A stretch of DNA of 64,000 bases from Isoetes taiwanensis (Eukaryota > Streptophyta > Lycopodiopsida > Isoetales > Isoetaceae), in NCBI GenBank assembly GCA_021234155.1, contig JAJEKV010000036.1, positions 5,090,209 to 5,154,208 of the forward strand, given 5' to 3'. Each line of letters starts with the position of its first letter. Position 1 is the stretch's first letter. The notes under the pieces were generated by a model. That model searched no databases and was not told where the DNA came from. It was given only the letters and a program-made list of their open reading frames with translations. A program made the translations under genes and the position numbers. Below are positions 4,235-63,410 of this stretch, in pieces.

Positions 4235-7200
4235 TTATTCTTCATCATCTGATAATACATCTGGAAGATTGTCTAGAATCTTCTCACTATCAGCTTCTCT
4301 AAGTGTGTATACAATCTTGCCCTTCACTTTCGTTTTTTTGCTTGGCATGTCCACTTTAATTGCACAAATTTGGGTTGCATAAACTATCGCCTTTGGCTCA
4401 TTTGAGCATAAAACATAGCTTGTACGTGATCTTGGTGCCTTTTTAAAATAAGTACCTTCAAGAAGTTCCTCTCCTGCATAAAATGTTTGTCCATTCGCCT
4501 CAAAGTCTTCCTCCACAACATACTTAGTCCTTGTGCATAGTACCATCCAAAATAGTGCACCCTCGTCATTATCCTTTGGAGCTACCACAGCAAACGTATC
4601 ACCTACTATTACTGCATCACTCAACATGGCTGACCCTGAGGAGAAAATTGTTCTTTTGGATTTGCGTTGCTCAAATTCATCAGCTAGAACGTTGCTCGGT
4701 TCAATAACTACAAGCTTCCAATCATCTACATACTCTTTGTTCATACATTTACCCCATTGAGCATCAAGGCAATTTGCACAAAAGCACGATAAATGTCTTA
4801 CTTGCAGTTGGGTAGGACATTCTGGATTGAATGCATGAACAGAATGGATGTTTCGTGTGTCCTCCACTGTCTCTGCTGCCCAAAGGTTGTTTCTATTCAC
4901 ATCCACCACTTCCCAAAACCATCTTCGTACCGGCTTCTTATTCACACAAGATGATGGAGCAACAGATGAGAATCTCTCCCTAGCTATCTTCACGATATCT
5001 GCTGCACGTTCTATTTTCAGATCCTGCAATCTCTTCATCAATTCCCTCAACCATCTCTTCAATTTCGCAGCTTTTCCATCATGCTCCCTTTCCCATGGTT
5101 GGAGCAAAAAAAGTTCCACATCATTTGCATCCAGTGGCTTGTGCATACCTTCCGACAAAGTAAAAAGGTCTTGCTGCCTTAAACTGAGACGCTGCTCCGT
5201 CGGAAAAGACCCAATGCTTATTTGGATCCATTCCTTGTTGTTGCATAAATTCATAATGCATCATAAATGCATGCTGAACAAACAAAGTATCATGCTTTGT
5301 GTCATCTGATATATAATAATGAGTATCCTTCATCACATCATTTGACACAGGATCTACAAAGTATGTAATATGCACTAAGATAGAAACTTGTTTGCTAGTC
5401 CAATATGCAGATTGAACTTGATTTTGTAGTTGGATACTAAAATTTCTCAAGAAAGTCTACAACCGACAAAAAGAGTAACGTGGAAGATTTTCCAAACAAT
5501 TACGTAAATTGTTTGGCCACTTATGCCCGAAACTATGCAAAGAAACTTAGCCAACCTATCAATCAACTTGTGTACTAAAGCTCATGGCTCGGTTTCTTTC
5601 CACAAACGCTTAAGTGTCTTCTTTGGTTTTCCCCACTTATCTTTTTCCGCCTTCTTCATAATCCCAAGATTCCCAACTAATAGATCCTTCGCTTGCTAAC
5701 TCTTATGACATATAGATAGTCGGGATATGCCACAATTAGTGCAAACTCCATCTATACAATCTTTTTTGTGGAATTCCTCATTCTCCTCCTTTGACAAAGA
5801 ATAGACCCGCCACAACTCTCAGAAGTTGTCTTATATTTTTTTGTCTTAGCAACACACGCTTTCTCCCACATCATGGCATACATCACATGTACAACTACAA
5901 GGATTCACATGTTCCTTTCTCAATCTATTAAAACCATCTAAAAGCATTTGCAACCAAGCACGTGATGTATGCAACAACAAGAGTTAAATTGCTTCAATTT
6001 CAATACGCACCACGGTTTTAATTTCTCAAATGCCCTTTGGCGGATTTTCACCTGCCGATATTGCTCTTTGAATTTAAGAAACATTTCGACCGATAATAAC
6101 AACAATAGTAATTAGTTTACATGCATGATGTGTGAGGCGCACAACCAAGACTAACTACAACTAGAACTGAATCTATTGCACCTAAAACTGCTAGTTAGGT
6201 CTGCTTTGATTCTACAACTACAACTATTTGGTCCGCTATAACTATTACCTAACCTCGAACCTATTAACATGTAATACTACTACCGTAATCTAGAACCGAC
6301 ACCTCAAATCGCCACAGAATCAAGACGTGCCACTAGCATCTGCAGAATTCAGCACATGCAACCGCTACTTGCAACTTCGACTACACCGCAACTATCTCTA
6401 AATCAGAAGCTTTTAGTTAGGATTGCAAGCTAAAACTATAACATTTCACACTATAACCTGTGAATTTTGACCGCAACTTGCAAATTGAGTCAAGAAATGG
6501 AACTATAACATAAATTACTACTATGATTGGGACTCCAACTTGTGGGTATAAAAGTACTCTTACCGCCTTTCACAACTACATAGCGCCTTTATCATAGGAA
6601 ATTCAAAGCAAACACCATTCATCAAACACATATTTTGAGTTGAATCTAACCAAATAAAATACATCAAATATGCTACAAAAACTTTCAAAGTATAAAGCAC
6701 AAAATAAGGCAATAACTAACCTGGGTGTCTTCTAGATAATGAGTTGCATGCTCCTCTTTAACATTCTTCTCCAACCTTTTATATTTCACATCTTTCACGT
6801 TTGGCGAGACCCTAGTATTTATGTCCCAAAAAATTCGACCAACTCGATAATATCATTTCCAATTGAATCAATCCTCTTGGACCTTCTATAAAACACCCAT
6901 CCACTTTTATTTGTGTCTATCTCCTTGTATTTATCCCTTGCAATCGCAATATTTCTTGGATGGATGCCTAAAACTTTTCCCAAGCTTCTCTTACTAAAAG
7001 TTTCATTGGTGCAACCTTGTCCAATAGACATCGCAAGTACACTCTGCTTTGTACCATCGAATCATTCCCTAGTAGAGGATTTTACCGATTGGATATTCTC
7101 TCTAATATTATCAATCAAATGGTTCTTCACCTCTATATTCTTAAATCGGGCGCCAAGAAACTCTCCAACATTCCTTTTGCTTCATGAACTCATTCGTAAT

Positions 7201-31454: not shown

Positions 31455-32205
31455 ATGTGATGGAAAACGAGGTAGGGTTGGTTGCACGGGAAATAGCAAA
31501 ATTTCCAGATCACGCATCATATTTAGAGGAAGCTAATGAGATGCGGAGTATGATGAACGTTGCACAGGCCAAGTTATATGATTATGTTGGTGTAACCATA
31601 GAATAGGCAAGAGCTAAGGCTCCGATTTTCATCCATGGGGCAGGTGGAACAGGCAAGAGATTTTTGTTGAGTGCCATATGTCTTTTTATCAGGGGGCGAG
31701 GGCAGATTGTATTGCCTTGTACGGTCACACCTTCGGTAGTGGCATCATACCCAGGTGGAAGATTTGTGGAGTTATTGTTTCAAATCCCTGGAATTGGCTA
31801 TGGTGTTGCTGTAGATTCAGCAATGGACATAAGTTCAGAGGAAGCTGTGCTGCTTAAAAAATCAAGTGCTATTATTTGGGACGAATATCCCAGAATGAAC
31901 AAGGCAATTATCAAGTCTGTGGATGCCCTTCTGCGACAAATTTGCAACAATAGCTATCCTTTTGGTGGGAAATGTGTTATAGCGTGTGGGGATTTTAGGC
32001 AGATCCCAGCGTTGATGGAAGAGAACTGCTCATTTCTATTTGCATGTAATGTGTGTGTTAGTGACTTCAATATGCGCCTTCTTACGGAGGTATAAATTGT
32101 TTGTGTGATTGTGACTTGGTTGTATATTTACAGGATAAAAATGGACGTTGACTGATATTTTGATTGCAGGCTATAACAGAGGAGGATGGAATGATGATTA
32201 GTGAC
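31455..32205 (+). pseudogene. Helitron/PIF1-like helicase fragment
   Basis: Encodes the N-terminal part of a superfamily 1 PIF1/Helitron helicase: IFIHGAGGTGKRFLLSA (Walker A; the usual GKT/S is GKR), SSAIIWDEYPRMNKAII (Walker B, normally IIWDEAPM) and FGGKCVIACGDFRQIPAL (motif III, GDFRQxLP). A TAG at 31604-31606 interrupts the frame just before Walker A, and the frame then stays open to 32095. GAG at 32088-32090 precedes GTATAA, and TTGATTGCAG at about 32168 could be the acceptor, after which the frame soon ends. Motifs IV-VI are absent. Lost Walker Thr and truncation mean no helicase activity is expected. A T24 tract (31431-31454) lies just upstream. Confidence 0.75.
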
Positions 32206-44590: not shown

Positions 44591-45288
44591 TCAACGATCT
44601 GGGTTTTGATCTGTAGAAATAGGCTCTGTTTGAGGCAGATCCACTCTTTCTGGCACATCCGGCGGATTTGCAGCTATGGCAGAAGGATCGGAAGCAGGGG
44701 GCGCCGGAATTGGGGGGACCAACAAGCTCTGCCTGCAAAGAGGGCAAGAAGTTCTTGAATAAAGCCACAGATCGATGCATTCAGAATGGAAACAGTGGCC
44801 GCATCTGGGAAGAACCCTAATCTTGAATTCGTGTTCTTCAAATTCGGCCAAGCAAACGGCGCAGCTGTCCGAATCCACCAATTTTTTGTCCTTAATCTTA
44901 ACCAAATCTGCATAATCAAGCTCTGGAATGCCTTCAATCACGCCTCTCATACTGCCCAGATGGTCTTCTTTCGAGCAATCGAAGCCCAGGCGTCTAGAAC
45001 TGCCGCTTGTGCTTGCAAAATCAAGACTGCTTCTGCCGGAAAACGCACTAAATCTTGAAGAATCCATGGGGCCTGGGGCGGATATGGTGATTCTTGTATT
45101 GGGCCCTTCTGATCCGGGGCTTTGTGGTGCTGAATCTGGTAGAAAATCTCTTGCGGGCATCAATCTTCTCAGGCAGAAGGCGATTAAACCCATTATGCAA
45201 AAATCCCCAATAATCCTCCTCCTACTATGCCCACCAGAACCAAATCCGGCGTATGATGGGAATTATTCGTTGCTGTGCTTCCTGCCAT
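44591..45288 (-). CDS. ATL-type RING-H2 E3 ubiquitin ligase, split by a one-base frameshift
   Basis: The frame from 45193 to 44591 (200 codons) holds a canonical RING-H2: [20 protein letters not shown] followed by [14 protein letters not shown] and TSCPLC, with ligands C-x2-C, C-x-H-x2-H-x2-C and C-x2-C and the ATL-type proline before the third ligand region. Upstream lies a Ser-rich linker and FCLRRLMP. The true start appears to be ATG 45288, [14 protein letters not shown], followed by [15 protein letters not shown], the transmembrane segment that ATL ligases carry before the RING. That piece runs into TAA at 45195-45193 one frame off. One extra base in the A5 run at 45199-45203 would join both into a single protein of about 232 residues with a continuous membrane helix. 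Domain order (short N-terminus, helix, linker, RING-H2) matches single-exon ATL genes, which direct membrane-linked ubiquitination in stress responses. No other damage is visible. Confidence 0.85.
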
Positions 45289-47834: not shown

Positions 47835-50800
47835 ATGACTCATGCCACAAATCTACCGAGACTGTCTACAATGTGGAGGGTTCTTTCCCAGACCGCTGCT
47901 TTGAACTGTTCTTTCCGAGGAGACGCCAGGTAAGAGAGGTATAGCTTGTACCTCAACTGTGGGACCAAAGCCTCAGGCTGCGTCTCCGCATTCCTGAACA
48001 CCTTCATGCGTCGCCGCTTCCAAATGAGCCACAACAACCATGCTTTACACAAATGAAAGGCCGGACTCGAGGGTGGGACCACCGCTAGGGTACACCCCAA
48101 AAGAACCTCTTGACTACAGAGTGAGGTATGGAAGAGGCGCCTGGACCCACCTCCATGCCTACTGGATATGTAAGCAAAGAAACATGCAAAGGTTCGGGGT
48201 CTCCACACATGCACCACACATAGGGCGCCGGTCGGCCGATCCACGGATTGATCCCGTGAACCCACGTGTTCACCCTCGGGGCGATGCACAATCACGCCAC
48301 AAGAATACGCCTTGAATCTTGGGGGCGAGGATTGGGTTCCATACCCATCTCGGATGTAGGCCCGATCATCTCCCGTGTTTGAAGCTCCAACCATCCGGAG
48401 GCGGCTCATCTGAATTGCGAAGCCCATAACAGGATCTCCACGAAATTTGAGGGGTCTACCTTGGGGTGACACTTCCACACACGTCCCGATGCACGTGGAG
48501 GGTTCAACGGCAAAGCATTAGCCACCGCGCCCAAATAGCACAATCCCCTCTTGAAGTTCGAAATTTGTGGCGAAAGATGCGCCAAGGTGCCAGCGCCCAT
48601 CAATATACCACTCCGCCGTCAGCACCCCGTTAATGCCCACTGCGCCGAACCGCGGATCGGCGGGGCTACCGCTAAAAGGTCGCAGCGTGGTCCGAAGCGG
48701 AATCCACCAAAGCGGCGCCTCCAACCGAATGCACCTGGTGGCGTCAATTGCAAGCGGCCAGACCGGACCTGCTCCCAAGCTTCGCAAAGAGCCCCTTTCA
48801 AAATGGAGAGGCATGGCGTATGGCCTAATATCCACGAACAATGCCCAAGGGGGCCTTGCGAGCACCCGGGGCGGCTTGTGGAAAACTATCGAGTGAGACA
48901 ACGGCCCGATGAAGCAAGACCAAGCCCCGAGAGTCGAGCACCTCCTCAAGAATGGCAAGGACGAACTTAGACAAGAGGATCTTGCCATGCGGCCAGAGGT
49001 CGAAGAAGCCCGGAGCCCACCCGCGACCTTTGGGGAGCGCCGCATTTCCACCAAGCCACCTTAACGGCGACCCCCTCCTCATTGCCTCCCCATACAAAGT
49101 TACGCACCATAGAGGAGATTTCACGGACCTTGCTTTCTGGTGCCAAGATGATAGAGGCCATATAAATATGAGTCGAACACAGGCGACTTACTTGTGCTTG
49201 TGACCACGCCCGACCATGGGCGGCTTCCCCCCTCCACCAATTAAAGGTGCGGCCTTGAGACCCACGAAATGTCCTCCCACACGGTGGCGCTGAAATGGTA
49301 GATCTGCCGGGCAAGGATACCCAAAAGCCTAGAACATGTGCCTGCTGACTGAATTAAAGCCAAGGGGTGGGACCGCGATCGCTTGGGCATGGGGTCGGTG
49401 CCGACCCTATCTGGGAACACTTGCCGTCCAATTCATAAAGCCCGGAAGCAAGGGAGAGCATATCGGCTCCTCGCCGTGTTTGACAAATTTCCCTCATCGG
49501 CACAGCCAAGAAGAGGCGAATCCTCGACATCTTACGACTCCCCAATCTGCTGCGACCCATCCAGCCATCCCTCAGCCCCTCGACCACACCGCCTCCTACT
49601 GCGAGAAGTCAACAAGCTGCGAGAGGGCCTCACAACAATGGTAAAGAGGAAGGGTGCCAAGGACATCACTGGCGAACTCCAGCGCCCCCACACTAAAGAT
49701 CGAAGATGACTCACCATGACCCGGGGAGGGTGGCTCACGGCGGGCGTTAAAAGCTTCATCACCATTCTTGGTAAAAAGCTCCCGCATCAAAGGCTAACAT
49801 CATCCTTTTTTGGGAGCGTCCACGAGCGGTATCATATGCCTTTGCGAAGTCCGGCTTCAAATCACGAAATCTGGCGACTTTGTTTAGCGTGCCCGGTGAA
49901 TGCCCTCAAATCGCGGTGCTACATTGCTAAGAATACACTTTGGGAATGAAGCGGGCGCATGGGACTAATGGTCTCCTTCAAGACCACACTGCGATCTAAG
50001 CGAAAGTGCCTTACCAATGATTTTGTATCTTGCCAAACGAAGCGTAATGGGGCGTCAATCGAGGAGATGACGGCTGGTTCCTTCACCTTCGGTATCAAGG
50101 AGATGCGGCCCGTGTTGAGCCTATAGTCCAGCGCATGCACTGGGCGGATCTTGATAGGTGCTTTCACCAAGAGTCCCCACCCGGTCCCAATATTCTTGGA
50201 AGAACTTCGGCCCAGGGATGCCATCGGGGCGAGGGGCACTTGTGGGGGAGCCAAGGCACGGCAAGCCTCCTCCGGCTCACGCTTTGTGGCCCGGGCGCTG
50301 CAACATCTACCTTCTCTCTGCCGACACTTTGCCGCGACACTTTCACGAGCACAATCTCCTCCATCACATCCGTGTAGGGATATCTCTTTTTTCTGAAAAA
50401 TTGAGAGAAGTGCTTGAAAAGTAGCCTGCGATGTCTGCCGTGAGTTGAACCGCGACCATCGGCCAATGCCGGTGGCGACATTGCGGCGGCGTGCTTCTTT
50501 TGTCGGCGCGACCCTGAAGAACATTCGAGGAATTAGTGTCCCCTTCCCATGGCAATGACCCACAGCTTTAACCCTTGCACGAGCAGCCCTCCTAGATTCA
50601 TCTGGCTGCAATGTGGCGCCAAGATCTCATTCTCCGCACCCCATCGGGGCCGATTTGAGACCTAAGGACCTCCAACTTCGCGATACAGCACCTCTAACAC
50701 CTCCCTCTCTTGTCGTGCTTTCGCCCGACTCCCCCATGACTTGGCCGAATGCCTTGACCTCACTAAGGCCCGCACCATTCCCTTCATCCCGAAATTATCC

Positions 50801-51620
50801 TAAAGGTACGAAACCAGATCTGGCGGCATCCCCAAGAAAATCAGCATCCTTCGGTGGCGGTGTTTAATTTAAACAGTCGCAGTCGCGGCTCGCCCTAGCT
50901 GCAGCCGCTCCTTTGAGATCAACGAGGAAAATGGTCGAGGATACGCGGTAGACAAAATGTTAGATGCCTTTGGTAGAGGCGCTGGTCATTTGCCGGGTAT
51001 TCACATAGCATCGTGTGGTCGAAGGATTATGCCGGCCCGATCCCGTCCGATTACCCACGTGAGCGAAGAATTAAGCCCGCCGCCTACCCGGATACAAGGA
51101 GTCCAAGAACATCATCCATCGCTGCCGCTCAAAACCACACTTGCGACTTCCGCCTCCTGCACACATCTATCATGGATGGACTCCACCATATTGAAGTCAC
51201 CCAACAACGGCCAAGCCACATCCGCCCCCAAAGGATGCGACCTTATGCCTTAACGACGCCCATAACGCCCTCTGCGCTGCGCACTATTGTGGCGTGGGAC
51301 ATTCACAATCCCCACTCGTGCGGGCCCTCACGCCACTTGACGATGACCCACCGCCCCGATTGGTCATGGTGAAAGTCACCGCACATGCATCTTCCACGCA
51401 ATGGCGGTCCCACCCTTAGAGGCTCCAGAGGTGGCAACCGGCATAGTATTGCGGCCCACACATGTCCAAGCGATTACCCGGCGTTCCCCACAGGACGCTT
51501 GTGTTCACGAAGGCACAAGATATCTGGATCCAACTTACGAGGCGGCCAACGCCACTCTGCGTTCTTTTTCGCGGTGTGGCGCACCCCACGAACATTCCAG
51601 CTCACTATCTTCTTGTCCAT
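47835..51620 (-). pseudogene. LINE ORF2 (endonuclease and reverse transcriptase), broken
   Basis: Starts at ATG 51620 with MDKKIVSWNVRGV, the first strand of the APE-type endonuclease, then LDPDILCLREHKRP (normally QEHK). The metal-site region GDFNMVESIHDRC lies near 51195. The reverse transcriptase begins near 50150 with LNTGRISLIPKVKEPAVISS; its FADD catalytic box is recognisable only as a damaged remnant near 49500 with bases missing. The C-terminal part (49050-47840) has FHKPPRVLARPPWALFVDI, WYIDGRWHLGASF and a Cys/His stretch, ending LHIVDSLGRFVA-stop. Homologous C-terminal sequence occurs at 63447-63976. Frameshifts are frequent, nonsense changes fewer. Confidence 0.8.
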
Positions 51621-51639
51621 AACTACTACTACTGAGACG

Positions 51640-53892
51640 CAGGATCTTTACGATGCTTCTTTTTCCTTCGCCGTCTTGCCGGGCTCAAACCCGATCCGAG
51701 TCATATGGAACAAGAGCGGCGGATTATCTGTGGAGTGCAACCTCCCGCCTCGAGATCCACCTCATCGCCCCACGAGCATGCCCAGAACCACCTTATCCGG
51801 TTCCATCCCCTCCGAGGAGGCTTGGGTGGATCTTTGCATCCAGTCCGACGGCTGCACCAACCGCTCCTCAACCCGTCCCGAGCCCAACTGCAAGGATTGC
51901 CGCTGCTTTCGACCCGTTCACGAAGGCTGGCGGATGTGCACGCAACCACGGGCCACCGTCTGCGGAGATCACGACCCCCTGCCCCATTGGCGGCTGCCAG
52001 CCCATCATCATCCGTCGCGGCTTCTGCGGTCTATCCGATGCCGGGGCGGTGAGTCCCTGGCCCGAAGGGGCCTCCTCCACCCAGCAGAGCTTGGGGCCGG
52101 AACACACTCCCCATCTGTGGAACCTTCTTCATTGCCTCTTGCGGAGCCCCGGTGTTGGCGGGCCTGCACTTTCGAGAATTGAGCGGGCGACACGGAGGCG
52201 GGAAACATTCTCGAATCTACGCCCCATTCAGCGGCGAGGGAAAACCGAAAGTACCATTCTCCTCCTCCCTAATGTCACCACAACGAGGGAGGCAATGGAC
52301 TATCCGCGGGTAGAGCAACACAAATCTTAGGCTCCCGCACTATGGAGTCGCAATATGACCGCCAATCCCATTGGCAATGCAATCATGAACTCCGGCAACA
52401 ACATATCCGGCGGGAAGATCCATTACACGAAACCAACATGGGATCTTCGGGCCGCCGACAAGGACCGAAGCGCCACGCCAGAGTGTAATCTTTGGTAAAT
52501 CGGTAATTCCCCACATGAGGTCCACCCCTCTCGCTATTATTCTCTCCACTACCGGGGGAGCATCGAACATGAGGAGGAAGAAATTGTTCCCTAGGAACTT
52601 CAGGGACTGAAACGGCGAGATGCCCAACCGCTTGAAGTGAGCCTGCAGCCACCCGCCAACTCTCCTGGTGTCCAGCACTCCAGTATAGTACACCAGCACT
52701 GCGCACGAGACAAGGTTGGAAATCGACCTGAGGTGTTTGCGATGATCAAGCTCAACTTCGGCGGCCCAGGAGAGCGATGGGGTCCACACGGCAACTCCCT
52801 CTTGTTGTGCCGATTCAAGAAGGCCAAAGCCTCCTCCATCCGATAAGTGTCGGCCGCGCCACGATTGTCTTGGGATCCATTCTCGAGAACCGCCCGGGCG
52901 TGAAAGCCGGCTCCACCGTGTCGTTTGTCGCCCACGCGGTCCCTTGCCTAACTCCATGTCCTTCGCCCACGCCCCCCGGACTTGGGATGTCCCCAATCCG
53001 GCGGCTTATGCGAATCTTTGTGGCGTACCACCACACCCCCATGCCCGGCCGAACTACACCGTCACGCCCTTTGCAAAGGATCCTCCGGCAGCGAGACAAG
53101 GCGGTGTGGACTGCATTTTGGAGTCACTGTCTCAAGTGGCGGCATGCTGGCTGGGACCACAAATTCTGCTTGCCCCCACCGCTTGTACATCCCGGCCAGA
53201 AGACTCCTCACCGGACCGCCTTTCCACCCAGGACCTCCATAGGGCCCCCGCCCGCAACCCTAGCTGGCTGCCCACCCAATCCAAAAAGAGCTTCCTTCCT
53301 ATCTCCGATCTCCACAGGCCCTTGCCCCGACCCTGGCTGCTGCGCCAGAGGGGGAGCTTACTGCTGTCCGCCCTACCCCTTCTCCCCCCAACACACTACA
53401 CATCTCAGACCGATGGGTACCAGCCTGCAGTGGCCCGCTATCCCCTCCGCTCATCGCCTCAGCGAAGACGACCAGGTCCTAGCCACAGAGCAACCGGATC
53501 TGTTGGCAACACAAATCCTAGCCCAGCTGGCCGGCCATGAGGCCCAGGAGCTCCCGCGACAACCAACCCTACTCTGATGCTGCCGGATTGGTCAGCACCT
53601 TGAAGCTGCTGCCCCACAGCCCCCGGAATCGCCTCCTCCCCTAACTGCTGCCCAGATGCACCCAATCCATCGTAGATGAACGAAGGCGAATCAACTGTTG
53701 AATCAAAGCCCCGGTGGTCGATTCTGGCGGGCGCCTCGCCACCTTAGGAATCCGCTTAGGCGGAGTTGAATGATTCGCCAGAGCATGAGCATCAGTCCGG
53801 CCGTTGCTAGCTCCTGCCATATCACCCTCAGGATTCCGAACCCCCGCTTAGAGCTCCTGAAGGCGCCGCCTTAGTTCCGCCGCCATCGCCAT
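51640..53892 (-). pseudogene. LINE ORF1 (gag-like, DUF4283-type), broken
   Basis: ATG at 53892 begins MAMAAELRRRLQEL and meets a TAA, then the frame resumes with MAGASNGRTDAHALANHSTP. The middle, best seen at 52996-52340, reads ISNLVSCAVLVYYTGVLDTR, GWLQAHFKRLGI, SLKFLGNNFFLLMF and VDLMWGITDLPKITLWRG. This is the RNA-binding DUF4283 fold that opens ORF1 of plant L1 elements, followed by a Pro/Arg-rich C-terminal part. ORF1 protein normally coats element RNA. At least one stop and several frameshifts prevent expression. Confidence 0.7.
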
Positions 53893-53903
53893 CGTTCTAT
53901 ATC

Positions 53904-53918
53904 ATTAACTCATCTATG
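53904..53918 (+). repeat. Target-site duplication of the LINE (right)
   Basis: ATTAACTCATCTATG, matching 47687-47701 exactly. With the LINE removed, the two sides join into uninterrupted AT-rich spacer. Confidence 0.9.
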
Positions 53919-54853
53919 TTGTATGGGTGTTATCAATGTAAACACTTGTTATTTACTTTAACTCATCCTTGCAGAGCAAGTGGGTTTTAATTGTCACCTC
54001 ATTGTCAACCCTATGACCAAATCTAAAGAATAGACCTCAATCTCATGTCACAAAGAAGCAATGCTTCGTTCTCAATCTCATTGCTACAGAGAACCAAATA
54101 TACAGTAAGTAGCATTTCATGTTGCCAAAAGCTATATAATAGTGTCCTTTCCTAAACGCATTGCCAAATTTGACCACTGATATAGTAATTGACACTTTCT
54201 TACTCCTCTCCTACATCCTCAAACTTATAGATCAACAACAAAATATAGAATAAAATCCATTACGTAAGTTTTTGAAGGACGGAAAAAGCTTATTAATCAA
54301 AGGTGAACATTAAAAAGTGTACATATCTCATCTAGTTGTGTAAGCACAAGAAAATGCTCCTGAAACACGACCCTAAAGCATCATGTACTTACACTAGCAT
54401 ATGAGACTAATGATAAGGAACAACAGAGGTTTTTCTTACAACACTTACATTACATAGTTTTTTCTTAAACTGTTGTTGCTTCGCTAGCAAGAGCATCTAA
54501 TGTCCTTGTTGCTTTGCTGGAAGGGGCATCAAGGCTATGCATAGGCTCTTGATTTTCTCTAATTCTTGCGAGTTCTTGCTTTTGCAACATGAATTTCCTT
54601 TCAAAACTCGCTTCAAAACCATGCTTCAAAAAACAAGATATCTGCTTCTACCTGGTGCTTCTATCTAGTTCTTGCCATAGAATGATCGTTCCAGCAAATC
54701 CTCACCAAATTGAGCATGAAATGGCTCAAACACGAGCTTGACGATGAATCTCATGGAATCCGCTGCTATAATGGCAAGAAAAATTCTAGAAAAGCAAACA
54801 AACTACTGGATCGGGTAATCTTTAGGTGGACGAAGGTTACGGAGGGAAAAGTT
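53919..54853. other. No supported gene
   Basis: AT-rich spacer. A short diverged repetition around 54480-54530 (TTGCTTCGCTAGCAAGAGCATC against TTGCTTTGCTGGAAGGGGCATC). A 134-codon ORF at 54710-55114 owes much of its length to the foldback inside it and is not supported. Confidence 0.4.
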
Positions 54854-56074: not shown

Positions 56075-57252
56075 TCCTCTCGAAATGTTAGGGCAGTCCA
56101 CATTTCGCACGTGCCGCCCCCGTTTGTTCAATACGGCGAGCATTAGCAGCCTGCCAGGTGGCACTAGCAGCCTGCCAGGTGGGACAAGAAAGTTATAGGA
56201 TGTTCTTCAAAAAAAAAAAAAAGTTATAGGATGTAATAAAGGTGATAATATGGAGAAATGTGGCCTACCCTAACATTTTGATGACAAAGCAATTGTCATG
56301 ATAAACTTAGTTTAGAATTCATCTTTGCCTAAACCTTGAAAGATCTTCTAATCTGAATGAATACCTATCAAGAGCTCGTACCCGATTCCAGAAAATGGTC
56401 ACGCCTGAAGCCATGACTTGCTCATGCTTCAGCCTGACTGCGTTATGTCGAGTTTAGCTGGCTGCAAAAGGGCTTTTATCATAGCGACCTCCTGTTCCAG
56501 ATGCGATGGACGTTGCTGAAATGGCCCTTTTTGCCTTCATTTTCTTTTCATCCTTTCCATTTGAGATAACCACCAAAAAACTAATCGGAAAATCTTTACC
56601 TAGAACAGGAGGAACATACATGTCGATCAAAAAGAAAGGGCCTGCAAAATTTATTGGAAAAATGTACCCAAAAAAGAAAAAAATTAGCTGTTATTTTTAG
56701 CAAAAAATTTCAAAATATTTGTTTTGGTTGTTGTGGGAGATTTTGTTTTTTTTTTTTAATTTGGAAAAGAAATAAAAATTCAAAAATCATTGGCAAGTTC
56801 ATGAATAACATACAAACCATTAAATACAAATATAACATAAATCCTATAACACACCAAAATAAAAAAAAAAAATTTTGATTTTTTTTTTATAAATATAGCA
56901 CAACTAACACTGTTGCAAATTAAATGGGAGTGTTGCAGCACTCCCATTTTGTAGATTCCCTTTTAAAAAACACCACATTTCTAAAATTGGCCTTTTTTGA
57001 AATTTGTTGAGAATTTGAAGAGGTTTGGTGTTTTTTTCCTTTCATTTAGAGCCATCATTAGACGACAACTTTGTAAATAAAGAAAATAAAAAAAAGGCGA
57101 AATTTAGGCATGAATTGGAAAAGACTGAAATTAAGACAAAAAAAAAACACTGAAATAGGAAGGAAAAGGTAATTTTATTTTTTTAATAAAATTCTATACA
57201 TCAATATTGGCAATTCATTGTAGTAAATAATAATTAATTTAGCATAAAGTAG
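56075..57252. other. No supported gene; AT-rich
   Basis: AGCAGCCTGCCAGGTGG is directly repeated near 56145-56178, and AAGTTATAGGATGT near 56191 and 56221, separated by an A run. From 56650 to 57200 the sequence is A/T homopolymer-rich. A small perfect stem AAATGGGAGTG/CACTCCCATTT sits at about 56922-56949. It should include the 3' flank of the methyltransferase gene. Confidence 0.4.
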
Positions 57253-58756
57253 TCAAAGATCTACATCATAGTCCTCATTATTTTTCTTGCTGGTCTCAAC
57301 ACTATCTTTCTCTGCCATCTGCTCCTTTGTTGGAGACTTATCACCTTTTGATTCTGCCTTGTCCTCTGGAATAGTAGCTAAAGCTACTTCTTTAAGCTCT
57401 GCAAAGGTGGCCTCGTCGTCTAGTGAGCTTGAGAAAGGAGGTTGTATCTCTAAGGACATCAGCTTAGCATAATCAGATGAAGACTTTGCCCCTAAATCTT
57501 GATTTTTATCTGGTAAAGTAGGTAAGACAGCCAATCTCATCCTCTTCACAGCCTCCTGGTCAATGTCCACGGCTACACAATTGCGGCCCTTCTTAAGTGC
57601 ACAAGCAATAGTAGTACCAGAACCAGAAAAAGCATCAAGCACTCAATCTCCTGGACGCGAGAACATGTCCAGGAGATGGTTGATGAGCTTTTGTGGTTTC
57701 TGATAGTGATTTACAATCCTGCCTTGTGCACTTGGGTCCTGCAATTTCTATAAGAACGCTGAAAACTCTAGGACGTTTGAAAAATTTTGGCAGGCGGCAG
57801 TGTTAAGTGCTCCATGGTTCTCTTCCCGTCAAAACTCCAGTAAGCAACATGAAGGTACTCCACCTTGCTGAGCAACCTTGGTCCTCCACCATGATAATTG
57901 ATGTTCGTTCTGTACCTAGTAACATATTTGAAGTGAAGTTAGCAAAAACAAGAAAACAATTCGAAAACTAGAACCAAAGTAATCCTATTCCGAAATACGA
58001 AATGTAATTGAAGAGGCTAGCAACTGTATTCTGGAATAAGACTTACCGCACTGTGTTTTCATATCCCACGCCTCGAACCGGAGAACCGGTGGTTTTAAAA
58101 GCGGATTCTACCAAGCCAGCCTGCATGCTAGAATGGAATACAACTAGACGCCAATGCTTGGCCATTGTGATCTGCTTGATGCAATCAATGAATACATTGA
58201 ACTCGGAAAATTTGAAGGGTTGGTCGTCATAGCGGCTAGCAGTAGGGAAGGTCTGCAAGAACCAAAGTAAAGTCCTGTGGCTTAACCGTTCCGACTAGTT
58301 TCGTGCAATCGCCATGAATGATCGAAAACAGGTTGTTTTGATCAAACATGCAAAATCTTTCATAGTCGGAGGGTTCTGCATCAATAGTCCTCCTTTCAGC
58401 TAACGACCTCTCTTCCCATGCAGTTCTAAACAAGTGCATGAAGCCCTCGGGAAGGTCTTTGTTCTTTTTCTTGCTCTGTAAGAGAAAATAAAACTACTAT
58501 TGTTAACACATCGCAGGTTAAGAGGAAATAAAATGAGCAGACTTACCCAGCCCTCAAAGTTTGGAGCGTAGGGCTTTTGCAAACGTGAAGAAAAGTCAGT
58601 ATGCTGTACTTACCACCTGCACCTCTGGTTACGAACCACTGTGTTTGAAAATTTTCGTAAACCGCAGGCTCATCCGTGTTCTTCGTCTGCTTCATTGGAT
58701 GTGGCCGTTGGACCAGCTTAAGCACTTTCTTTGGTGCTTTCTTGCTTCCTTCTTGC
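57253..58756 (-). pseudogene. Bacterial-type DNA amino-methyltransferase (N4/N6, beta class) gene with introns, broken
   Basis: Belongs to the N6_N4_Mtase fold (PF01555) that methylates adenine N6 or cytosine N4. Exons: 58756-58614 (Lys-rich linker, then ENFQTQWFVTRGAGG, GTAAGT donor); about 58573-58547 (PYAPNFEGW); a clear 71-bp GTAAGT...TTACAG intron at 58546-58476; 58475-58047 with LFSIIHGDCTKL and TLVLADLPYC, the motif IV position (usually DPPY or SPPY, here DLPY); intron 58046-57916; then 57915-57738 onward with INYHGGGPRLLSKVEYLHVA; then NHYQKPQKLINHLL (the HPTQKP element) and VLDAFSGSGTTIACALKKGR, the FxGxG AdoMet site, followed by VAVDID. Motif IV before motif I is the beta-class order. 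Damage: a frameshift just after DLPYC near 58248, another near a T run at about 57780, a TAG near 57755, and TGA at 57643-57645 where a Trp codon is expected just before VLDAF. A Ser/Lys/Glu-rich tail ends at 57253. Spliceosomal introns show eukaryotic residence. Confidence 0.8.
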
Positions 58757-58871
58757 CTACCAAAGTAATGTTTATAACAACACTAACAATTGCTAATTTG
58801 TGCATTAAATGAAAGCAAAAAGAAGAAAAAACAGCCAGAAAAAAGTTGCACAAGCACAACAGGAAAAAGGT

Positions 58872-59856
58872 CATTTAGCGACGTCTATAGCGACGTCTAG
58901 GTCACGTCTATGCGACGCCCGACGACGCGGATACGTGACGCCGCATCGACATCGCCGCCGCATCGCCGCGATGCGACGGCGCCGCATGCGACGCCTGGCA
59001 GACGTGACACGCATATGACGCTAGACGCGTGACACGTATCGTGACTTAGACGTCGCATGCGACGTGACACGTGGAATATACACGTGGAATATACACGCGG
59101 AACATCAACAAAATCCACGAAAAGCCGTAAAAGCCCGGTTTACGCCGCATGCGGCGTGACACGTGGAATATACACGGGAATATACACGCTGAACATCAAC
59201 AAAATCCACGCTGCGTCGCAGCCACGTATACGCCGCGATGCGACGTGACACGGGAATATACACGCGGGAATATACGCCACATACGCCACATATACGCATC
59301 GACGCGTCATACATTCCGGTGATACACGACGCCGCATGCACGCCACCGCAAACATCCACCGGGCGAGACACTGCCGCCCACCAGCGCACAAGTCCACCCC
59401 GGCATGACATGGGCCAAGTATTAGACCGCCGCGATGCGACGGACGCCGCAATTGTCCACCCTCGGGCGTGACACCGCCCTCTTCCCCGGCGCCAAGTCCA
59501 CCCGGGCGTGACAGATGGGCTGGCATCAGATGCTGTATGCGACGCGGACGCCGCAATCGCCCACCGGGCGTGACACTCGTTTCTCCACTGGCTTCAAGTC
59601 CACCGGGCGCGATGTGATGGGCCAAAGTCATCAGACGCCGCAGCGACGCGGACGCCGCAGCATCCGCCACAGCGACACCCGCCGCCCACCGCACAGCGCC
59701 CACTGGCGGGCGCGGATCCGCCACGCCACGATGTCGACGCCGTCGCGTAGACGTCGCATGCGACGTTCCTGCGACGTGGCGTCGCATTGACGTCGCATGG
59801 TCACGTCAATTATGACGTCACGTGACTCAGACGTCGCAAGCCCACGTCGCTAAATG
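58872..59856. mobile_element. CpG-dense repeat with 13-bp terminal inverted repeats (985 bp)
   Basis: CATTTAGCGACGT at 58872-58884 is exactly inverted at 59844-59856. The interior is packed with CGCATGCGACG-type palindromes and CpG, unlike anything else in the window. Two internal tandem arrays occur: about three copies of a 90-bp unit (59055, 59147, 59235; CATGCGACGTGACACG followed by GGAATATACACG and often AACATCAACAAAATCCACG) and about four copies of a 105-bp unit (near 59340, 59441, 59546, 59650; GGACGCCGCA..GTCCACCGGGCGTGACA). Long open frames on both strands are by-products of the repeats. It resembles a non-autonomous DNA transposon by its termini, but no target duplication is certain. 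It lies just upstream of the methyltransferase exons, probably within or replacing its 5' part. Confidence 0.6.
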
Positions 59857-59985
59857 TTCATTCTCTTGTTGTGAAGCATGCTTTTTCGTGTGCCAAATTA
59901 ACTAAAAAGTGATTTGTAAAAGCTAAAAACAACAAAAACAAGGACAATATTTTCCGAAATACCAAATACATATTCCAGAATACAA

Positions 59986-60132
59986 AGTGTATTCCAGAAT
60001 ACACTCCGCCTAAAGTCAAAAGGCAAAGTGTATTCAATACACTTTGCTTACACAAGAAGGGCAAAGTGTATTCCTGAATACACTTTGCCCTTCAGACGAA
60101 AGGCAAAGTGTATTCCGGAATACACTTTTGCC
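59986..60132. repeat. Four consecutive palindromes built on GCAAAGTGTATTC/GAATACACTTTGC
   Basis: Palindromes at 59986-60005 (AGTGTATTCC/AGAATACACT), 60023-60047 (12-bp arms, one-base centre), 60059-60090 (15-bp arms, two-base centre) and 60102-60132 (15-bp arms with one extra T). All share the same arm sequence but have different centres. The core TATTCCGGAATA recurs outside the cluster at about 60393 and 60439, and a related TATTCTGGAATA near 58028 inside a methyltransferase intron. Confidence 0.9.
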
Positions 60133-60530
60133 CACCAAAGTAAACTATAAAAGATCCAAAAGACGTACTATATACTTTACATGCTTACCTGTCCATAATT
60201 TTCGCTATATAAACCAGAATACAACAACCGTGAATAAGAATAGAAGGCGCTCGCTCTGACGAATACGCTCTGTGAAAGCGGAATACGCAACTGAGGCGCT
60301 CAATTTTCTTTTTTAAAGGTAGACTATTGTCAATTATCTTTTTCTATGTAAAGTGGAATACGTCTTGTCCAGACAGTCTGGACTAGCATATTCCGGAATA
60401 GGATGCACTCACACAACAAATGCATCACACCAAACAGTATTCCGGAATAGCTTTTTGTATTTTCGAATAGAAATTGCACAACCGCCTAGTGAGTTACTTA
60501 AATGTCCCCATTGTTTTGCAGTTGTTTAAG
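60133..60530. other. Spacer with isolated TATTCCGGAATA motifs
   Basis: No gene. Two isolated copies of the palindromic motif (near 60393 and 60439) and a short palindrome GTCCAGACAGTCTGGAC at about 60368. A TTGTTTTGCAG acceptor-like site lies just before the ORF that starts at 60531. Confidence 0.5.
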
Positions 60531-61181
60531 ATGGTTAACCGCGTCGTGAACAACCTTCCACCACCATTTGTTTTCTCTAGTACCTCTACTTCAGATGGAA
60601 CACGTGACGCAGATGCTTCTCCGACTCCTACCTCGACAAGGTCTTTGTTGCTCCTCGAAGACACTCCGAGTCCAATAACTAATAGACTGCCACCACCTTT
60701 CCAAATCTCTCAAAGTCCAGTAGGAAACCGGTTGCCACCTCCTTTCATTACCTCACCTGTTGCACGTAGTAATCTTCCACCACATTTTTGTACCAGCTTT
60801 AGAAAAATAAAGCTCAAATTCTTACTTGTAGGGCACACTCACGATCAGATTTACCAAATGTTCAGCAGATTTTTTGTGCGCCTTAGAAGGAAGAAGGTTT
60901 TTTCTCTTCCTACTTTAGTTCGAATTATTGAAGATTCTTACACTCCCATTCCAATGATTGAGCTTCTTAAAGAGACTGCTGACTTCAGAGAGTTTGTTTT
61001 CTCTCAACGTTCAGGCAGAGAACAAGCTGTGAACAAGTTGAATGATCTCACCTTTCAACATCACATCAAGTTCTACTTGAGGGATGGACAAAGCTTCTTA
61101 CAGGGGAAGAAGTACACCACAACTAAGGACTGGAGTCCACCAGAGGGATTGCGCTCCCTTATCCAGACACTTGCTTCATAG
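60531..61181 (+). CDS. ORF with Pro-rich repeats and a DUF7869-like tail
   Basis: ATG 60531 opens a 216-codon frame. Residues 1-95 are Ser/Thr/Pro-rich and carry a repeated NxLPPPF element (NNLPPPF, NRLPPPF twice, SNLPPHF). From about residue 100 the character changes: KLKFLLVGHTHDQIYQMFSR, FFVRLRRKKVFSLPTLVRII and HHIKFYLRDGQSFLQGKKYT. The LxVGHTHxxIDxxFSR phrase is the conserved end of the DUF7869 domain found in transposase-like proteins of plants, oomycetes and invertebrates. CAGCTTTAG just before AAAAATAAAGCTC could be a splice acceptor, so the N-terminal half may be intronic or a separate exon, making the single ORF a chance fusion. After the stop, another frame continues with ERAEQLPLKNPKNNVCIID. 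The conserved N-terminal part of the domain is absent, so this is a fragment. Confidence 0.55.
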   Translation: MVNRVVNNLPPPFVFSSTSTSDGTRDADASPTPTSTRSLLLLEDTPSPITNRLPPPFQISQSPVGNRLPPPFITSPVARSNLPPHFCTSFRKIKLKFLLVGHTHDQIYQMFSRFFVRLRRKKVFSLPTLVRIIEDSYTPIPMIELLKETADFREFVFSQRSGREQAVNKLNDLTFQHHIKFYLRDGQSFLQGKKYTTTKDWSPPEGLRSLIQTLAS

Positions 61182-63410
61182 AACGTGCTGAGCAACTGCC
61201 TCTCAAAAATCCTAAGAACAATGTGTGCATTATCGATTAAAAATCTTTGGGATGTAAAGAACTCCCAAATCCCACCTTTTCAATCTCCAAATCTTAGGAC
61301 TGTTATGCAACACTCTCTATATTTAGTGATAGATGAAAATACAAATTCGTTTTTACATTTTGCGCTGAAGAAAGTAAACCCAAATAGCTACCATAAATTG
61401 TATTTTCTTAACGCGACGGATGGTATTTTATTATAGTGCAGATTTTCTATCTAAATTTGACATGAATGGATACAATTAACTTACGTTCAAGCTATTTCTT
61501 CAACAACATAACTTCAGAATGTAAGCACCGACATCTATTCACTCATGCATGGGCCTTATTGAATTGTCTAATGCAACACGTGAATAATTGGTATGAAAGA
61601 ATCATGACTTTTCTCCTCCAAGTTATTATTCTGGGTAGGATGGCTTCTAATTTTGATGGCATTATAAACAAAATCATGGCATGCTTCAAATAGTAACCTT
61701 GCAATGTAGTAACCTGGAACCATTGCTTGAGCACAAAAAATGCAATGACAAACACTAGAAATATGCTATTTGGAAGGGCTAATAGAATCTGCCTCTACAA
61801 ATAGAAAAGCTTGATATTGAGAAGTCACATCCAATGTCGTATTGTAAAACGGCTACTTTGGTGCAAACTCAAAAGTAATACTCACAAAATCTTAATTACT
61901 TCTTTTAACTATACTTAGCTAAACAAAAGACAATCCTGAAGCTTGACAATCAGAAAAGACAACTTCAAATGCAAGAACATTGTTGTAGAAAGTGCCCCCA
62001 CTTTTTTTTCAATTATGTAGGGATCCTTTTTTTTCAATTATCTATTCTAGGATCCTATCTTATGTGTGTTATGTTCATGGCATTGGTGCCATGTGCAATA
62101 TGCCTATGATCAAGGTAAATAGCATAATCAAAACCGCAAAATTTATTTTCCAAAGCAGGCCAGTTGTAGTTTGATATTGCAATATCAATTCTATATTCAA
62201 CCAAGAAAATGAACTTGACATTGCAATTGCACAACTACATTGAACAAAAAATAGAACAACATTGTTAGTAAGAAAAATGAACATGTAAGAAACCTACAAT
62301 ATCACCATTGTGGGCGGCGCGTTTTATCTAGGGGGGTTCACATAGTTTTGGCCATACAAACCATGTGAGTGGCCCGAAAGGGTTTGTTTTCCCCTTAAAC
62401 CGTACATATACTCGTACCTAGGGGTAGCTTTTTGGGGTTTTTAGGGCAATTTTGGTACCGTATGTGGCTGGAAAGGGGGTTTCTAAAAAAAATCAAACGT
62501 GTATACAAGGGGGTTTTTGCCGACCCCTTGCACGCAGGTGGCATACCCCCTATACAATAGGTGTACCCCCTGGGGTTTTATCCAATTCAACTATAGGTCC
62601 CAGGGAGAGAGATGTGATGAAGCAAGACAGAACCTGGGTCTGATCTTAGGGCCTCACATTCTAAGGACTAATTAAGGGTCTTAAAGGCCATTCTTTATAC
62701 CTTTATTTGGGGCTTTAGTTTACGCAAGCATGTAATGAGAAAGTTTTAAACTTCAAACATATGATGCACCAATAACACTATCATGCAAAATCTATTTGTG
62801 TCTAAACTAGTGCCTAATCCCAAAATGCCTTGGTTATTATGTGAGAGGCAAACAAGAAATCCATTCTTAGCCTGGCAGAAATCATGCAACACTGTTAAGG
62901 TCAGAACATAGTTGTATTAGTACAAACTAGATATTTAAAGTTCAACCCACAAACAATCTCGCATTTGTTTTTACGAGACAACAAAACAACAAATATGCAA
63001 GCACACCTTCGGGGACCGGAGGGCAACCCTCCGTGCACAGCACCTTGTTTATTTCTGTTCGCCCCGTCGAATTTTTTTGGGCCGCAATATAAGTCTATAT
63101 TTTGATGTCATGTGTTTTGGAACAAATCTGAATGGGCGTCTGGCAGTGATAAGCTACAAGGCACATCGGCGAGAGTGGCGAGGTATAGTGGTGGATCTTT
63201 TAAGGCAATGGACAGTTCGACATGCTTCTGGCATGGCTTCTTCTTCTATGACCTTCTGCTTCTATGGTGCAAGCGTCTGCTTCTATGGAGTTTCAGAGCA
63301 AGAAGAATCGACTTCTATGGCACTCTGCCGCCATAGCCAAGCCGAGCTGAGGCTTCAAATTTGTAAGTCCCCTTTATTTTTTTATTTTTTTTAAGAAGTT
63401 CCCTTTATTC
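61182..63410. other. No supported gene
   Basis: The start may hold the frameshifted end of the preceding ORF (to about 61236). TTTTTTTTCAATTAT is directly repeated near 62002 and 62029. From 62310 to 62640 G- and C-runs alternate (GGGGGTTTTTGCCGACCCC), giving weak local hairpins, perhaps an old element. At 63210-63330 the phrase CTTCTATGG recurs several times. No recognisable coding motif. Confidence 0.4.

Follow-up and report, generated by a model that had tools for sequence, protein, structure and literature searches.

What is an intron-containing DNA amino-methyltransferase of prokaryotic type doing in the nuclear genome of the lycophyte Isoetes taiwanensis? The locus lies in a stretch of 64,000 nucleotides, hereafter the window, whose initial annotation recognized the methyltransferase from its motifs, connected it with the N4-cytosine writers of bdelloid rotifers and liverwort sperm, and mentioned a transposon-borne methylase as an alternative. 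The motifs are indeed there. DLPY is encoded on the minus strand in a reading frame at 58236-58493, and NHYQKP and VLDAFSGSGTT follow on the same strand in the last exon (approximately 57256-57917), which taken alone matches PF01555 with an E-value of 7.6e-7 and 29.7 bits against a curated cut-off of 26.7. On the evidence given below, we consider that the locus is probably the decayed remnant of a DNA transposon that encodes its own DNA methyltransferase.

The repeat holding the locus extends from 56906, where a terminal inverted repeat with one mismatch begins, to 61216, where homology to intact copies ends. Its parts are as follows:

56906-61216, minus strand (methyltransferase orientation): probable remnant of a DNA transposon with DUF7869 and methyltransferase genes, aligned to intact copies L014, L016 and L012; truncated on the DUF7869 side
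56906-56930, plus strand: terminal inverted repeat at the methyltransferase end, one mismatch to the family repeat
57256-57917, minus strand: last methyltransferase exon with NHYQKP, VLDAFSGSGTT and acidic tail; frameshifted, open frame starting at 57642
58049-58478, minus strand: motif IV exon (ADLPY) spread over two frames; tblastn pieces to exon A at 58478-58242 and 58237-58049
58574-58768, minus strand: piece of a 5′ exon of the same methyltransferase gene, 75.6% DNA identity to L014 4069-4260
58870-59860, no strand: GC-rich repeat within the window element, absent here from intact copies and without homology to the element; extent set by eye
59970-60131, no strand: part of an array of palindromic repeats of the TATTCCGGAATA type between the genes; more copies near 57985, 58026, 60390 and 60439
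60019-61216, plus strand: decayed divergent gene for DUF7869, the presumed transposase; aligns with L014 and L016 in two blocks and has lost an internal part at about 60796

As a functional gene the locus fares less well than its motifs and intron, both of which stand, would suggest. A stop codon lies in frame immediately ahead of VLDAFSGSGTT, the frames of both catalytic exons are broken, and alignment of the last exon with exon B of an intact copy (tblastn) contains 3 stops and 11 gaps. The ParB-like exon of intact copy L014 found no match anywhere in the window by DNA alignment. The right terminal repeat is present at 56906-56930 and is adjoined by AACT at 56902-56905, the place expected for a target duplication; the left end was not found in the window, this side of the element being gone. 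What is left of the second gene can still be recognized, its open frame at 60471-61181 matching PF25273 (DUF7869) with an E-value of 4.7e-19. The window copy is dead and makes nothing, and many other copies are broken as well. The GC-rich repeat at 58870-59860 is rich in GACGTCGCATGCGACGTC-like palindromes, and a part of it (59720-59874) has an 86.5% match to DNA flanking another copy.

Several other features of the window were recorded. A protein of 223 amino acids encoded at 44591-45262 on the minus strand belongs to the RING-H2 type (zf-RING_2, E = 2.9e-12) and is likely a plant gene, and a fragment of a PIF1-like helicase, possibly from a Helitron, lies at 31607-32095 (E = 7.5e-27). GC content rises to 56-58% at 48001-54000, compared with about 38% around, and long open frames overlap there on both strands. 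An open frame of 341 amino acids with many Cys motifs (4235-5260, minus strand) reached the cut-off of no Pfam family; it was considered as a companion of the DUF7869 elements and rejected, matching only itself among the loci examined.

A bacterial-type enzyme in a plant assembly might simply be bacterial or other foreign DNA. The assembly was not axenic, and its authors are reported to have removed contaminant contigs (PMC8566536), of which some could remain. The initial annotation had itself named a contaminant contig without plant flanks as an outcome that would overturn its reading. The window, however, belongs to a scaffold of more than 14 Mb (C1041) and contains the RING-H2 gene and the PIF1 helicase fragment, and copies of the element occur on many scaffolds, inside Gypsy-type and PPR-type reading frames. 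On scaffold size, neighbouring genes and spread of copies we reject contamination, which is now barely conceivable. The two catalytic exons are separated by a GT-AG intron whose borders are identical in all nine paralogues compared. The initial description, an intron-bearing amino-methyltransferase of prokaryotic type in the nuclear genome of a plant, is upheld.

Copies were counted, as the initial annotation had proposed, over the 1,658,258,908 bases and 1110 contigs of the genome. PF01555 gave 1444 rough candidates and DUF7869 (PF25273) gave 9908; in each case the best 150 were scored, and all 150 passed the cut-off. At least 24 of the best 150 PF01555 matches lie no more than 15 kb from a best-150 DUF7869 match, against an expectation of 0.41, and such pair counts are lower bounds because both lists hold the best 150 matches only. 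DUF7869 is located upstream and on the opposite strand in 22 of the 24 near pairs, 17 of them at a distance of 5.1-6.0 kb. The copies are scattered across many scaffolds. In the intact copy L014, DUF7869 is matched with an E-value of 1.1e-52 and the last methyltransferase exon scores 67.4 bits with PF01555. Its methyltransferase gene consists of an N-terminal part with no Pfam match, a weakly ParB-like part, an exon with D[L/I]PYG and a final exon that encodes DAFSGSGTT and then an acidic tail. The same layout was found in a second deep Isoetes subfamily (C1034:30715000-30729999), whose methyltransferase is about 54% identical. A search with the ParB-like part of this subfamily gave 2858 candidates; among the best 150, which were scored, 17 have a top DUF7869 match no farther than 15 kb away (on the opposite strand in 16 cases), and 4 are near a top methyltransferase match. 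Divergent DUF7869 and methyltransferase genes thus share one element that is present in many copies in the genome.

Alignment of copies gave a length of about 8.1 kb for the intact element (C1051). Twelve elements were examined with one end pattern, and each of the ten with both ends found is bounded by an exact 4-bp target duplication (TTAA, GTGA, TAAG, AAAC, AAGA, GACC, ACCT, GCTA, ATAT and ATAA). The pattern had been widened after a first pass with a narrower repeat type, which left C1077 and C1027, carrying the second repeat type, unanchored. Inverted repeats adjoining the duplications start with AACA, or with AATA at one end, and the 32-base right terminal repeat has 602 exact matches in the genome versus 0 for the reversed pattern. 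We also identified an empty site: when the flanks of one element were joined with a single copy of the duplication, all 40 scored matches crossed the junction, the best at 99%. The joined flanks of this element read, in our interpretation, as a Gypsy-type polymerase. Joined flanks formed an open reading frame at all four sites tried, which were chosen by eye from the ten, and we read the host frames at insertion sites as Gypsy-type and PPR-type. The Isoetes elements possess the two hallmarks of cut-and-paste transposition, terminal inverted repeats and target-site duplication. What had been listed last among the early proposals, a methylase carried by a transposon, is thereby favoured by the divergent DUF7869 pairing, the duplications at ten of ten elements and the empty site.

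These data also bear on the idea that the enzyme is an epigenetic writer of the host, acquired from bacteria in the manner of bdelloid N4CMT or the liverwort sperm enzymes and found near repeats by chance. Introns, plant flanks and conserved catalytic motifs would all agree with such an origin. The hundreds of copies, the target duplications next to terminal repeats, the empty site and the divergent DUF7869 partner would not, and Pfam searches of the five exon pieces of the L014 methyltransferase gene (E up to 5) revealed neither a chromodomain nor any other known domain. For the window locus the host-gene reading is refuted, and in general we hold it to be highly improbable; a single domesticated copy may exist elsewhere in the genome. 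The transposon reading is retained in what follows.

Which base would the transposon enzyme modify? In intact copies the exon with motif IV (DLPYG or DIPYG) is ahead of the exon with motif I (DAFSGSGTT), i.e. the motifs are in permuted order, and the catalytic motifs are preserved in the intact copies compared. A profile of five copies matched 11 sequences in the PDB, the best being CcrM (E = 4.8e-11, positions 52-286), followed by MboIIA and RsrI; CcrM was also ranked first by NCBIfam. N4 enzymes typically have S at the first place of motif IV. The residue is D in the Isoetes enzyme, and a DNA cytosine-N4 methyltransferase chain matched by the profile (E = 0.0048, 47 positions, 235-281) is far behind CcrM. 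Production of N4-methylcytosine rather than N6-methyladenine would nevertheless be compatible with that weaker match and with the breadth of PF01555, which spans both activities, the base not being fixed by motif IV alone; the authors of the Ectocarpus study likewise keep both bases (PMC12477816). We regard an N4-methylcytosine product as unlikely. Since CcrM is the best match of solved structure, adenine is favoured, and N6-methyladenine looks the likelier product. The early tie to the N4-cytosine writers of bdelloids and liverwort sperm, the latter enzyme (Marchantia DN4MT1) being known to us by description only, is not supported, given the D[L/I]PYG motif and the far better match to CcrM.

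Twenty copies were compared that had been chosen by rank among the 150, not at random; the closest pair is 97.6% identical over 1.77 kb. Median dN/dS came to 0.060 for the exon with motif IV (55 pairs from 11 copies, dS undefined in 27), 0.026 for the part with motif I (91 pairs from 14 copies, dS undefined in 12) and 0.159 for the acidic tail, with 0.38 in one close pair; as the values come from intact, ungapped copies with broken ones excluded, and dS was often saturated, they indicate constraint and not its exact strength. The catalytic exons are thus under apparent purifying selection, as judged from their sequences. This bears on the suggestion that the methyltransferase is a useless passenger which one element happened to pick up. 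Capture of genes by transposons is common, and the decay of many copies would suit a passenger, whereas low dN/dS in catalytic exons of diverged copies would not, nor would the recurrence of the two-gene arrangement in both deep Isoetes subfamilies and in the Azolla-type contigs described below. A passenger role is, in our estimate, very unlikely.

The remaining parts of the two proteins are less clearly classified. One stretch of the Isoetes methyltransferase gene produced weak ParB-like matches (phrog_1033, E = 2.3e-4; TIGR03764, E = 0.001; DUF6551, E = 0.0023); over all Isoetes matches E-values span 2e-4 to 0.02, below curated cut-offs where these are given. The same libraries yielded no ParB match in four Azolla-type exons and, in the second Isoetes subfamily, none except DUF6551 at E = 0.03. 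Alignment with eight cyanobacterial ParB-family frames (hhalign) had a probability of 0.2%, and a tblastn search of phages with the ParB-like exon found no match. The region may be called ParB-like in a weak sense only. In a cyanobacterial locus (L090, 1468-2823) a frame of 451 amino acids matches ParB_N at its start and, by our reading, looks like a degenerate methyltransferase at its end; it is a possible bacterial parallel of a ParB-methyltransferase fusion. DUF7869 has conserved motifs, assigned by eye as IDGMDQ, QLDNT and HTHxxIDQMF, that would fit a DDD transposase, and a sequence search against solved transposases found no match. Structure predictions had pLDDT values of 38.8 for the DUF7869 protein and 40.2 for the Azolla-type ParB-like exon, and neither model was used. 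We found no paper on DUF7869 in the openly licensed literature.

A scan of genome contigs detected eight loci outside Isoetes: seven contigs (L067-L073, run ERR2144891) of a metagenome-assembled genome of an uncultured Trichormus sp., all matching the methyltransferase profile, and a short Nitrospirae match. DUF7869 is again divergent from the methyltransferase in five of the seven contigs, the other two being 5.1 and 4.0 kb long. DUF7869 has eight matches in the Trichormus assembly and none in 59 other genomes of its family. Trichormus azollae is the cyanobiont of the fern Azolla (PMC5901025). Judged by their introns and by this distribution, the contigs most likely come from a fern, probably as contamination from Azolla, and we refer to them as Azolla-type. 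A cyanobacterial representative genome (uncultured Trichormus sp.) thus appears to include plant transposon contigs.

Comparison of one Isoetes with one Azolla-type copy revealed a phase-2 intron at the same place, inside a W codon; the Azolla-type gene has an additional intron in motif I. The inverted repeats of the Azolla-type element C142 start with AACAC, and no matching 4-bp duplication was found in C142 or L069, the two Azolla-type elements of which each end was read. A tblastn search of phages with the methyltransferase gave 987 records, all below 60% identity, and six of the 25 listed were taken further. Scans of viral contigs returned no locus with a single protein, none with A3 and A2, and four weak loci with A1. 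In a tree of 20 rows, 13 transposon rows were separated by one branch (100/100) from the seven outgroup rows, i.e. six phage enzymes and CcrM, and the Azolla-type (97/96) and Isoetes (96/97) rows were separate from each other; two truncated Azolla-type loci were left out, the L069 row was without part of motif I, and the program warned of long branches. The tree and the shared intron fit vertical descent and horizontal transfer alike.

If the enzyme acts on its own element, recurring palindromes are, at a guess, candidate binding or methylation sites. Raw counts of TATTCCGGAATA in four Isoetes copies are 7, 10, 6 and 11, between the genes and in introns. The window element contains three exact 12-mers and eight sites with at most two mismatches, and there are none in positions 1-56000 of the window. 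The second Isoetes subfamily has no TATTCCGGAATA but five TATGAATTCATA, and the Azolla-type element has neither of the two. Another candidate, the sequence GGAATATTCC, is present in 7 of 11 Isoetes elements no more than 90 bases from the left end, and at a comparable place in the Azolla-type C142 element.

Our observations concern the anatomy, copy number, target duplications and sequence constraint of the elements only; a mode of action can be sketched from them as follows. DUF7869 would be the cut-and-paste transposase, probably of the Sola-1 type. The second protein would bind DNA of its own element, perhaps via its weakly ParB-like part, and methylate it, most likely to N6-methyladenine. 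The likeliest use would be marking of the control region of the element, with the family-specific palindromes between genes and in introns, and such marking could tune expression of the transposase, time transposition or resist silencing by the host. Marking at palindromes is weakened as a view by the lack of TATTCCGGAATA in the second Isoetes subfamily and the Azolla-type element. One may go further and picture a lineage of self-methylating transposons whose bacterial-type amino-methyltransferase has stayed functional since before the lycophyte-fern split, as a shared phase-2 intron and sister clades might indicate. The enzyme would place N6-methyladenine on the family-specific palindromes of the transposon's own promoter and introns; it would be a major source of adenine methylation in the genomes concerned and a means of evading silencing by the host. 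We put this forward tentatively and consider it doubtful.

Claims of N6-methyladenine and N4-methylcytosine in plants usually come without an enzyme. Here a vascular plant genome contains many intact-looking copies of a bacterial-type enzyme, carried by a transposon and not by the host. With an enzyme named and candidate sites at hand, a prediction follows that the marks, if real, should be on these elements. Where an enzyme of this sort is annotated as belonging to the host or to a contaminant, the label can be wrong.

How does the Isoetes element compare with known systems? The nearest parallel is Sola1-1_Ec32 of Ectocarpus, where a gene opposite the transposase encodes a protein of 1104 amino acids with a ParB-like region and an N4C/N6A methyltransferase (Dinatale et al. 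2025, PMC12477816). According to the same source, such proteins are suggested to bind and modify their own transposon, with N4-methylcytosine and N6-methyladenine both left possible, and cases from green and red algae are cited there (Iyer 2011, Petroll 2025). Both systems are DNA transposons with the methyltransferase gene on the strand opposite the transposase, as found for the presumed transposase in 22 of 24 and 16 of 17 near pairs and in five Azolla-type contigs, and both encode an amino-methyltransferase, joined in Ectocarpus to a ParB-like region and in Isoetes to a part with weak ParB-like matches. They differ in that Ectocarpus, a brown alga compared here by description only, has one giant family of 21.5 kb, while the element described here occurs in vascular plants, is compact at about 8.1 kb in Isoetes, has no genes beyond the two that were found, and forms several subfamilies with many copies.

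Sola elements in general are described as having 4-bp duplications, inverted repeats and lengths of 2-9 kb, and as being present in the moss Physcomitrella and seemingly uncommon in flowering plants (review PMC10741241). The duplication length and size of the Isoetes element fall within this description, and its inverted repeats and, by our reading, three conserved aspartates of the presumed transposase add to the likeness; DUF7869 would likely be linked to Sola-1. The enzyme itself resembles N6-adenine methyltransferases of the beta class such as CcrM (PDB 6pbd and others), in which motif IV also precedes motif I, but it has DLPY or DIPY instead of DPPY, introns, extra N-terminal regions, an acidic tail and a location in a transposon. 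Bdelloid N4CMT is likewise a bacterial PF01555-type enzyme with introns in a eukaryote, although it is described as belonging to the host, bearing a chromodomain and marking transposons (PMC8885841), whereas the Isoetes enzyme is carried by the transposon and no chromodomain was found in it. Other mobile elements bear DNA methyltransferases too: Dam-like methylases are reported in DIRS elements and cytosine-5 methyltransferases in retrotransposons (PMC5890265), and methyltransferases in Mariner elements of giant viruses (PMC3627910). These are retroelements or viral, have enzymes of other families and, in the passages of these sources that treat them, are mentioned with no DUF7869 partner. We met no report of a ParB-methyltransferase transposon in lycophytes, ferns or vascular plants in the openly licensed literature. 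As the kind is already on record in algae, the Isoetes element is an addition to a known kind, and ParB-methyltransferase transposons, hitherto algal, extend to land plants and, among these, to vascular plants.
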